Origin: Thiomonas intermedia
GTDB lineage: Bacteria > Pseudomonadota > Gammaproteobacteria > Burkholderiales > Burkholderiaceae_C
DNA: 64,000 nt
Reading direction: 5' to 3'
Assembly (NCBI RefSeq): GCF_002028405.1
Contig: NZ_CP020046.1
Span: 3,038,001-3,102,000, forward strand
The position numbers were made by a program, and so were the translations under genes. The notes under the pieces were generated by a model, which was not told where the DNA came from, ran no database searches, and saw nothing but the letters and a program-made list of their open reading frames with translations. Positions 28,592-54,509 of the stretch are shown here, in pieces (position 1 is the stretch's first letter; every line of letters begins with the position of its first letter).

Positions 28592-30733
<2,142 letters not shown>

Positions 30734-47521: not shown

Positions 47522-49128
47522 ACCCTATGGCGTCAACGCCCTTGCTCAGCGTGCGTGGTCTGCAGGTGCGGTTTGGCGACCAGACCGTGGTGCACGACCT
47601 CGATCTCGATGTCGCCGCCGGTGAGAAGGTCGCACTCGTCGGCGAATCCGGATCGGGCAAGACCGTGTCGGCGCTGGCCGTGCTGCGTCTGCTGAGCGAC
47701 GCCCGGCAGACGGGCAGCGTGCGTTTCGATGGCCGCGAGCTGAGCAGCCTGAGCGAGCGCGCCATGCGGGCTCTGCGCGGCAAAGACATCGCCATGATCT
47801 TTCAGGAGCCGATGACCGCGCTCAATCCGCTGCATCCCGTCGGGCGGCAGATTGCCGAGGTGCTGGAATGGCACGAGGCACTGCCGCGGCGCGCGGCCTG
47901 GGCCCGCGCGGTGGACCTGCTGGCCCAGATGGGCCTCGACCAGCCCGCGCGCCGGGCGGCCGATTATCCGCATCAGCTCTCCGGCGGCCAGCGCCAGCGG
48001 GTGATGATCGCCATGGCGCTGGCCTGTCGGCCGCGCCTGCTGCTGGCCGATGAACCGACCACGGCGCTCGATGTGACCGTGCGGCGCCAGATCCTGGATC
48101 TGCTCGATGCCCTGCAGGCCGAATACGGCCTGGCCCTGCTGTTCATCACCCACGATCTTCCTCTGGTGCGGCGCTACATGCATCGGGTGGCCGTGCTGCA
48201 AAAGGGTAGGGTGGTCGAGGCGGGGGCGGTCGCCGAGGTGTTTTCGGCGCCGCGCCATCCCTACACGCAGATGCTGCTGAACAGCCGACCGCGGCGCCAG
48301 GTCGCGACGCCCGAAGCCGTACCGCCCCCCGCGGTGCTGCTCCGGGCCAGGGAGCTGAATGTGCGGTTTGCGCAGAGCGGCGGATTCTGGCGCAAGCGCT
48401 GGCATACCGTCTTGCAGAACATCTCGCTGGAGTTGCCGGCTGGACAGACCCTGGGCGTCGTCGGCGAGTCGGGAAGCGGAAAGTCGACCCTCGCGCTGGC
48501 CTTGCTGGGGCTGCTTCCCAGGCAGGGCGGCGAGGTCAGCCTGCTGGGGCACGATCCGGGCAGGCTGGCCGCCGCGGCGCTGCGCCCCTTGCGCGCGCAG
48601 GCCCAGATCGTGTTTCAAGACCCGTTCGCCAGTCTTTCACCCAGGCGCAACGTGGCGCAGATCGTCGAGGAAGGGCTGGAGATTCATCGGCCCGCGTGGA
48701 GCGCCGAACAGCGCCGCGAACGGGTCGAGCAGATGCTGGCGGAAGTCGGGCTGCCCCTGTCCGCGGCTGAACTGCAGCGGTACCCCCATGCGTTTTCCGG
48801 GGGGCAAAGGCAACGCATCGCCATGGCGCGCGCCTTGATCCTTGAGCCCAGAATCCTCATTCTCGACGAACCCACCAGTGCGTTGGACGTGTCCGTCCAG
48901 CAGCAGGTGCTTGATCTGCTCAGCGCGCTGCAGCGCCGGCATGGGCTGTCGTATGTGCTCATCAGTCACGATCTGGCGGTGATCGGCGCACTTGCGCATC
49001 GCGTCCTGGTGCTGCACCGCGGCGTGGTGGTGGAAGAAGGCCCGGCAGAGGCCATCCTCCGCACGCCGCAGCAACCCTACACACAGGCCCTGCTCGCCGC
49101 ATCCGACCTGGACAACAGCGCAGCCTGA
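47518..49128 (+). CDS. yejF: Duplicated ABC ATPase, YejF-like
   Basis: 536-residue ATPase with two nucleotide-binding domains in one chain. Domain 1 has Walker A GESGSGKT, signature SGGQRQR and Walker B LLLADEP. Domain 2 has [15 protein letters not shown] and ILILDEP, plus the oligopeptide-ABC C-terminal regions ([16 protein letters not shown]). It energises YejBE; last gene of the operon. Confidence 0.96.
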
Positions 49129-49140
49129 CCCCTCGAGTGG

Positions 49141-49169
49141 TTGCCAAGAAGATGGCCTCTCCCTATAAT
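49141..49169 (+). promoter_or_regulatory. Near-consensus sigma-70 promoter upstream of rimP operon
   Basis: TTGCCA (49141-49146), a 17-base spacer and TATAAT (49164-49169) form an almost ideal housekeeping promoter. A transcript would start near 49176. The next gene, rimP, begins 335 bp later, behind a terminator at 49380. Confidence 0.75.
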
Positions 49170-49175
49170 CCACTT

Positions 49176-49405
49176 TTTTGCTGGCCGCAAGAATTTCCTC
49201 GAAATCCTAGAAAAAGAGCAGTCGAGAAGAAAAGCAGTCGCTTGGCCGTGGTAGGACGTGTGGTGAAGCGCGGCGTGTGCCGTGCCCAAGAGTCGCGATT
49301 GGTGTCATTTGGGCGCTGTGCGGCCGGGGCGAAACCGGGGCGCAGCGCATGAGCCTGTCCACTGCAGTGAGCAACAACTGGGCGACGTTATCGCCCTTTT
49401 TTTTT
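49176..49405 (+). ncRNA. Candidate leader RNA or small RNA before rimP
   Basis: About 230 bases lie between the strong promoter at 49141-49169 and the intrinsic terminator at 49380-49405. No convincing ORF fills it. It could be an attenuated leader of the rimP-nusA-infB operon, in which read-through is controlled, or a separate small RNA. The promoter, terminator and spacing are seen; the RNA is inferred. Confidence 0.4.
49380..49405 (+). terminator. Rho-independent terminator 105 bp before rimP
   Basis: GGGCGA (49380-49385), loop CGTTA, TCGCCC (49391-49396), then nine T. A 6-bp GC-rich stem with such a T-run should terminate efficiently. Being between a strong promoter and rimP, it may act as an attenuator. 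Confidence 0.85.
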
Positions 49406-49510
49406 GCTTGCGTAGTTTGAGAGTGCGGGCGGCGTGTCGAAGGGCGCGAAGTTGCGCCGAATTTTTGAAGTGTTTTTGAACGGATTTTTCATTGGCAAGC
49501 GGGCAAGCGC

Positions 49511-50074
49511 ATGAGTGCAGCACAGGCAATTGAGACGGCAGTCACCAGTCTTGGACTGGAACTCGTGGAGGTGGAACACCTGCCGCGCGGATTGCTGCGC
49601 GTGACAATCGATCACGCCGATGGCGCCCCGGTGACCGTCGAAGACTGCGAGCGGGTCACGCGTCAGCTGCAGTACGTGTTTGAGGTGGAGAACGTCGACT
49701 ATGGTCGGCTGGAGGTTTCGTCGCCCGGGCTGGATCGGCCTCTGCGCAAGCCGGAAGATTTCGTGCGTTTCGCCGGCCTTGAGATCGATGTCGTGCTGCG
49801 TGCGCCGTTTCAGGGGCGCAAGAAATACCGCGGCGTCTTGCTGGCGCGCGGCGAAGACGATGCGCAGGGTCGCTTCTCCATGGCCTTGTCGCCCCCTGAG
49901 GTGGATGGCAAGCGCAAACCCGGCGCCGCCAAGAAGAAGGTCAAGGCCGCCGAGCCGCTCGCTGCGGGTCTGGCCCTGGGGGAGGACACGGTGTCCGTCA
50001 TGAATTTCAGTCTGGCCGAGGTGCGCGATGTGCGCCTGGTGCCTGTTGTCGATTTTGGGAGTGGTCGAAAATGA
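49511..50074 (+). CDS. rimP: Ribosome maturation factor RimP
   Basis: 187-residue 30S assembly factor. N-terminal [22 protein letters not shown] and [18 protein letters not shown], and the Sm-like C-terminal part beginning [21 protein letters not shown], are diagnostic. A longer Lys/Ala-rich insert ([16 protein letters not shown]) is typical of betaproteobacterial forms. The stop overlaps the nusA start (ATGA). Confidence 0.95.
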
Positions 50075-51549
50075 GTCGCGAGATTTTGATGCTGGTGGAC
50101 GCCTTGGCGCGTGAAAAGAATGTCGATCGCGAAGTCGTCTTCGGCGCCGTCGAGGCTGCGCTGGCGTCGGCCACCAAGCGGTTGTACGAAGGCGAGGCCG
50201 ACGTGCGGGTGCAGATCGACCGCGACACCGGCGAGTACGAAAGTTTCCGTCGCTGGCATGTTGTGCCCGACGAGGCGGGTCTGCAATTGCCCGACAGCGA
50301 AATTTTGCTGTTCGAGGCGCGTGAGCAAATCCCCGACATCGAGTTGGATGACTACATCGAAGAGCCGATCGAGAGCATCGCCTTTGGCCGGATTGGCGCG
50401 CAGGCGGCCAAACAGGTCATTCTGCAGAAAATCCGTGATGCCGAGCGCGAACAGATCCTCAACGACTTTCTCGCCCGCAACGACAAGATTTTCAACGGCT
50501 CGGTCAAGCGCCTCGACAAGGGCGACATCATCGTCGAATCGGGCAAGGTCGATGCGCGACTGCGTCGCGGCGATTTGATCCCGAAGGAAAACCTGCGCGT
50601 GGGCGACCGTGTGCGCGCGGTGATCACCAAGATCGACCGCACCGCGCGCGGCCCGCAGATCGAGATCTCGCGCACCGCGCCCGAGTTCATGATCGAGTTG
50701 TTCCGTCTGGAAGTTCCCGAGATCGAGCAGGGGCTGCTGGAGATCAAGTCGTGCGCCCGTGAGCCGGGCGTGCGCGCCAAGATCGCGGTCGTGTCGCACG
50801 ACCGTCGCGTCGATCCCATCGGTACTTGTGTGGGCATTCGCGGTTCGCGCGTCACCGCGGTGACCAATGAGCTGGGCGGCGAGCGCGTGGACATCGTGCT
50901 GTGGTCGGAAGATCCGGCGCAGTTTGTGATCGGGGCGCTGGCGCCGGCGAACGTCTCGTCCATCGTGGTGGACGAAGAAAAGCACGCCATGGATGTGGCC
51001 GTGGACGAGGAAAATCTGGCGCTGGCCATCGGCCGCACGGGTCAGAACGTGCGCCTGGCATCCGAGCTGACAGGCTGGAAGATCAACATTCTCAGCGCCG
51101 AAGAATCCGACGCCCGCAACACGCAGGAAGTCGAGAAGATGCGCAGCCTGTTTGTCGAAAAGCTCGATGTCGATCAGGAAGTGGCCGACATCCTCATCGC
51201 CGAAGGGTTCACCAGCCTCGAAGAACTGGCCTATGTGCCGATCAACGAAATGCTGGAAATCGAGGCCTTCGACGAGGACACCGTCAACGAGTTGCGCGAA
51301 CGCGCACGCAACGCCCTTCTTACGCAGGAAATCGCGCGCGAGCAGAAGCTCGATGAAGTCGATCCGGCGCTCAAATCCCTCGAGGGTCTGGGCACCGAGG
51401 ATCTGGCCCTGCTCGCCGAAGCCGGCGTGTTGACCCTGGATGATCTGGGCGATCTGGCCACCGACGAGCTTGCGGGCATCCTCCGCACCGACGACGCCAG
51501 GGCCGCCGCGCTCATCTTGAAGGCCCGCGCGCATTGGTTCGACGCCTGA
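50071..51549 (+). CDS. nusA: Transcription termination/antitermination factor NusA
   Basis: 492-residue RNA-polymerase-binding factor. N-terminal domain [19 protein letters not shown]1 domain around [21 protein letters not shown]; two KH domains ([44 protein letters not shown]); and two C-terminal helix-hairpin repeats ([26 protein letters not shown]). Position between rimP and infB is universal. Confidence 0.97.

Positions 51550-51611: not shown

Positions 51612-54509
<2,898 letters not shown>

Follow-up and report, generated by a model that had tools for sequence, protein, structure and literature searches.

Among predicted attenuators, the rimP-leader is the most ubiquitous (Naville and Gautheret 2010, PMC2965389). 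Its general form is a GGGc...gCCC stem followed by a U-stretch, 4–130 nt before the gene; no antiterminator is visible, and NusA is the best candidate regulator (PMC2965389). Several Gammaproteobacteria carry a second terminator and an antiterminator upstream of the rimP-leader (PMC2965389). NusA of B. subtilis is autoregulated via NusA-stimulated termination in its own leader, according to a passage of a review (Mondal et al. 2016, in PMC12288461). For S. agalactiae, an RNA-seq study describes a short and a long transcript that share a start, the short one ending 31 nt after it, and suggests NusA feedback both in this species and in E. coli (PMC4448216). In a Herbaspirillum study, the legend of one figure mentions a rimP element (PMC6337395). 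No description of a rimP leader in Thiomonas was found in the openly accessible literature. The Thiomonas locus described here is probably a rimP-leader transcription attenuator, with NusA as its most likely regulator.

Promoter, leader and terminator of the Thiomonas locus

The window is the whole stretch of DNA that was analysed, 64 kb in length. Gene order is rimP, nusA, infB, rbfA, truB. The closest named RimP matches belong to a Thiomonas MAG (98%) and to T. bhubaneswarensis (88%). The features of the locus are as follows.

49141..49169, + strand: sigma-70-type promoter of the rimP operon, TTGCCA-N17-TATAAT, with a 17-nt spacer and 11/12 consensus matches
49176..49405, + strand: predicted leader RNA with the T-tract at its 3' end, ~230 nt if terminated; the start at 49176 is predicted
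49380..49405, + strand: rimP-leader terminator, GGGCGACGTTATCGCCC and T9, from stem search, conservation and genome pattern search
49511..50074, + strand: rimP, with Pfam RimP_N and RimP C-terminal domain
50071..51549, + strand: nusA, with Pfam NusA_N, S1 and KH_5
51612..54509, + strand: infB (IF2), with Pfam IF-2 and GTPase domains

The gene upstream of the promoter encodes a two-domain oligopeptide-type ABC ATPase and is co-directional with rimP; 12 nt separate its stop codon from the promoter at 49141–49169. The terminator stem, GGGCGA-CGTTA-TCGCCC at 49380–49396, has 6 pairs, 5 of them G-C, and a loop of 5. Nine T (49397–49405) adjoin the stem, and the distance from the T-tract to the rimP ATG is 105 nt. 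The strict pattern GGGC-N5..11-GCCC-T7 has one match in the own 3.34-Mb genome, at the rimP leader; the reversed control of this pattern has 0 matches in the same genome.

Taken alone, the window is weak evidence, because the counts in a scan of 48000–51000 are near shuffle expectation (one promoter-like site vs a shuffle mean of 0.4, four terminator-like sites vs 2.6) and the folding stability of the 230-nt leader is not unusual (z = −1.30).

Three further elements were seen in or near the leader. A second terminator-like site at 49443–49458 is almost intact in L028, a close relative; by eye, none was seen at L029–L036. Degenerate AGCAGTC-type repeats occupy an A-rich leader stretch (window 49216–49240), with four matches in the leader of L030; these repeats may form an array for protein binding or simply reflect slippage. 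A helix of UUGCU at the leader 5' end with AGCAA before the terminator, present in the window fold, was rejected: by eye it is lost in L031, L034 and L035.

Conservation in the genus, in Burkholderiales and in the class

Of 13 genus genomes, 11 gave a RimP match, and the leaders of these 11 were aligned. The −10 box, GGGCGAC...ATCGCCC and the T-tract hardly change among them. Conservation is also good in the −35 region and at the first bases transcribed, and the leader interior is variable in sequence and length. At L028–L036 the −10 box is TATAAT or TACAAT in 9/9 loci, with a TTG-type −35 in 8/9. A DNA search of 60 genomes gave matches in 11, the own genome included, all within the genus; except in the own and one close genome, they are confined to one or both ends of the query, on the promoter and terminator sides. 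The preliminary description of the locus (TTGCCA-N17-TATAAT, six-pair stem, nine T and a leader of ~230 nt before rimP) is confirmed. Lack of terminator conservation in relatives, which it had named as a refuting result, was not observed: in the 11 genus leaders the terminator is nearly invariant.

The best 80 of 117 stretches from a RimP search were kept. Upstream sequence is available for 79; L106 has none and is excluded from the counts. GGGC...GCCC with at least four T is present within 300 nt upstream of rimP in 79/79 of these loci, which are not mutually independent. As controls, the opposite strand of the upstream pieces carries the motif in 3/79 and the 300-nt pieces downstream of the rimP start in 0/395. 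The GGGC/GCCC part of the stem hardly varies across loci; the loop and flanks do. The near-expectation scan counts would suit a reading of promoter and terminator as chance consensus matches, but conservation refutes it (79/79 loci against 0/395 downstream pieces), and its probability is negligible.

Leader length was measured from the −10 box to the stem at 77 loci. The promoter was taken as the best match within 330 nt upstream of the stem, chosen without a null model; L053 was missed by the regex and L076 has no promoter under the rule, and both carry the terminator motif. Length is 176–251 nt in L028–L036. Long leaders occur outside the genus too (243 nt in L071 and L104, 290 nt in L040). 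In 16/77 loci the length is 23–29 nt, the minimal form. The distance to rimP exceeds 130 nt in 7/77 Burkholderiales loci.

These lengths bear on the other function that had been proposed for the leader, an independent trans-acting small RNA of ~230 nt. The leader has its own promoter and terminator, and genus relatives keep both ends. Its interior and length nevertheless vary greatly, from long genus leaders to the minimal form, in which hardly any sequence is left over for an RNA that has targets of its own, and no Rfam small RNA reaches the cut-off in the leader. With so little conservation of the leader body, an independent small RNA is considered improbable. The core device thus needs little beyond promoter and terminator, which also speaks against a small RNA as its general function.

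At gathering threshold, the whole window has a single Rfam match, away from the leader: a TPP riboswitch at 28648–28769 (+), with 61.5 bits, above the Rfam cut-off. At E up to 10, the leader has two weak matches, far under the cut-offs. 6S RNA (RF00013), considered for its size and promoter, was rejected: the only 6S-like match of the own genome is elsewhere, at C1:3269687–3269868 (−), outside the window (L016). This match has 44.5 bits vs a cut-off of 46.4, so standard annotation may miss it. There is no tRNA in the 64-kb window and therefore no metY-like gene in the Thiomonas leader, unlike in E. coli.

The gene upstream of rimP was taken as the best conserved upstream frame in an all-against-all comparison of 78 loci (L031 and L106 excluded). 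It lies on the opposite strand in 64/78 loci. It is co-directional in 12/78, as in the window, and is 1.4 kb away in one of these, L035; no conserved upstream frame is present in 2/78. The divergent frame of L050, the one tested, is enoyl-ACP reductase FabI (472 bits, cut-off 440). Where the terminator is kept between a divergent gene and rimP, rimP transcription is all that it can act on. In the window, with its co-directional neighbour, it could also end read-through from that gene. It is very improbable that the terminator is simply the ordinary end of the ABC transporter gene, with the promoter lying before it by accident. Co-directionality in the window and in 12/78 loci would agree with such an origin; retention of the motif in 64/78 loci with a divergent upstream gene largely refutes it, and in the window the promoter sits between the ABC stop codon and the terminator.

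In a class-level survey 131 of 143 genomes gave a RimP match, and the best 29 loci besides the own were examined. The motif is present in 17/29 by one rule and in 24/29 by a looser rule (within 150 nt; 420 nt allowed for the incomplete locus L124). By the looser rule it was not found in 5/29 (L121, L126, L128, L134, L136); L121 passes the other rule, with an interrupted T-tract. By eye, several of the class-level loci have GGGCC...GGCCCA and T, ~60–110 nt before the RimP match, and some also have a tRNA-like sequence upstream.

Other arrangements were noted by eye in Burkholderiales leaders. Ahead of the terminator, the Thiomonas FB-6-like group (L037, L038, L039, L041, L042, L047) has GCAAGGGCGAC or a close variant, which could pair with GTTGCCCTTGC after the T-tract, so that the whole terminator is enclosed. 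Several Roseateles-like leaders (L062, L064, L067, L073 and others) have an early element, CTTCACC, CTTCACT or CGCTGAC, with apparent complementarity to bases a short way ahead of the terminator, e.g. GGTGAA.

Probable attenuation and a candidate antiterminator

Good support for the idea that the rimP-nusA-infB operon is attenuated comes from the position and sequence of the motif in all 79 loci, from the 64 loci with a divergent upstream gene and from the published attenuator class (PMC2965389). RNA polymerase would start at a good sigma-70-type promoter, at the predicted start site, and would encounter, before rimP, an intrinsic terminator whose GGGC...GCCC stem is fixed and whose U-tract is long. 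A fraction of the polymerases would stop and release the leader RNA of ~230 nt; the others would read through into rimP-nusA-infB and probably rbfA-truB. NusA would strengthen this hairpin-dependent termination, and abundant NusA would give more termination and less RimP, NusA and IF2. Both attenuation and self-control by NusA had been proposed in the preliminary description; attenuation is supported by the conserved motif, and self-control remains plausible, with the B. subtilis case (PMC12288461) and the suggestion for S. agalactiae and E. coli (PMC4448216) as precedents. NusA feedback is the best-supported mechanism and is presumed for Thiomonas by analogy. The fold of the full window leader is strongly in favour of the terminator (0.98), which counts against this explanation. 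The results agree with the view that all the Burkholderiales loci examined retain an attenuator of the NusA/IF2 operon that is very widespread, minimal form included. Through the minimal form, in which only 23–29 nt separate the −10 box from the stem, NusA feedback could be tested with a simple reporter in many species.

The long leader of Thiomonas may contain a further element, with the following parts.

49234..49251, + strand: conserved interior block GCAGTCGCTTGGCCGTGG, from local alignment and pairing analysis
49237..49245, + strand: candidate antiterminator strand GTCGCTTGG, with 9 uninterrupted pairs to CTGGGCGAC
49378..49386, + strand: CTGGGCGAC, terminator 5' arm and flanking bases, partner of both the terminator and the candidate antiterminator

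The block is common to the window and six other genus leaders (7/11) and consists of GCAGTCGCTTGG and, after it, a tail that is similar among them. Within the block, GUCGCUUGG is able to pair with CUGGGCGAC, made up of the terminator 5' arm, two bases before it and one after. It is possible, though somewhat doubtful, that this strand holds the terminator 5' arm for as long as the 3' arm has yet to be transcribed. The balance between antiterminator and terminator would then depend on a factor, on translation or on how fast the RNA folds; such a device adds to the attenuator and is not opposed to it. On this tentative reading, held with somewhat less than even confidence, Thiomonas would have made the antiterminator-free rimP-leader a two-state RNA switch, in which GUCGCUUGG competes for the 5' arm as a second input beside NusA. 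A terminator thought to be controlled by protein would, if this is true, be combined with an RNA switch.

Support for the antiterminator is moderate and mixed, and the strand may have this function. The block is shared within an interior that otherwise aligns very little: in local alignment to the window, the scores are 17.5–21 in five leaders and 63.5 in L028, with shuffle maxima of 10–13.5 (60 letter shuffles each). It forms 9–10 uninterrupted pairs with the 5' arm; the L034 version forms 11, two of them differing on both sides. By the pair table, nine pairs form in 8/8 leaders having the block or the L034 version. Helix length is reached by 85, 114 and 230 of 20000 letter shuffles of the block (three versions) and by 1 to 18 of 300 whole-leader shuffles in seven of the eight leaders. 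For RNA that does not yet include the 3' arm, the predicted pairing is 0.87 in the window and ranges over 0.20–0.98 in the set of 8. Scored in the same way, 69 other Burkholderiales leaders gave none at ≤5/100 letter shuffles (lowest 9 and 10), a test with little power because many of these leaders are very short.

Other results weigh against an antiterminator. Duplex energy is not distinct from that of whole-leader dinucleotide shuffles in the window (p 0.395; 0.04–0.49 over 11 leaders) and is reached by 395, 459 and 1017 of 20000 block shuffles. In L028 the helix length is reached by 34/300 leader shuffles. Three of the 11 genus leaders (L029, L032, L035) are without the antiterminator helix, and the 8 with it amount to about four lineages, judged by similarity and without a tree. 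Two-sided changes are found at two positions. L034 is the only leader to show them, and because its element was selected for being the best helix there, homology is not established; one of these pairs is unformed in 5/8 leaders. Conservation of the block extends past its paired part. When the full leader is folded, the terminator prevails in 6/8, and the antiterminator dominates in L031 and L034.

Elsewhere in the interior, L029 shares a different 15-base segment with the window (12.5 vs a shuffle maximum of 11.5). Local alignment of L032, L034 and L035 to the window interior gave nothing above shuffles. A conserved upstream ORF was considered and rejected: of the starts considered, ATG or GTG preceded by a purine-rich triplet, only one, in L031, overlaps the block, hence these starts give no shared frame.

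Comparison with known systems

Rfam RF01770 (rimP) has by name the same gene context as the Thiomonas leader. The model has no match up to E 10 in 49100–49530, where its cut-off was not reached, and matches 0/40 family genomes (own included); the E. coli control was matched. RF01770 presumably covers the tandem form of some Gammaproteobacteria.

The ylxS(rimP)-nusA leader of B. subtilis resembles that of Thiomonas in having an intrinsic terminator ahead of the NusA operon; NusA dependence is reported for B. subtilis (PMC12288461) and presumed for Thiomonas. The gbs0413-gbs0418 leader of S. agalactiae likewise has a terminator before rimP (PMC4448216). It stops at 31 nt, in contrast to ~230 nt in Thiomonas; some other Burkholderiales leaders are short too.

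The general rimP-leader and the Thiomonas leader share the operon, the stem and the U-stretch, and the Thiomonas spacing of 105 nt is inside the range of 4–130 nt. The motif is leader-specific in the general form, and in Thiomonas its strict form is likewise single in the own genome. The Thiomonas leader differs in being long and in having a candidate antiterminator strand. It is a member of an already described kind of attenuator, to which the genus adds, as a candidate only, an antiterminator of its own.
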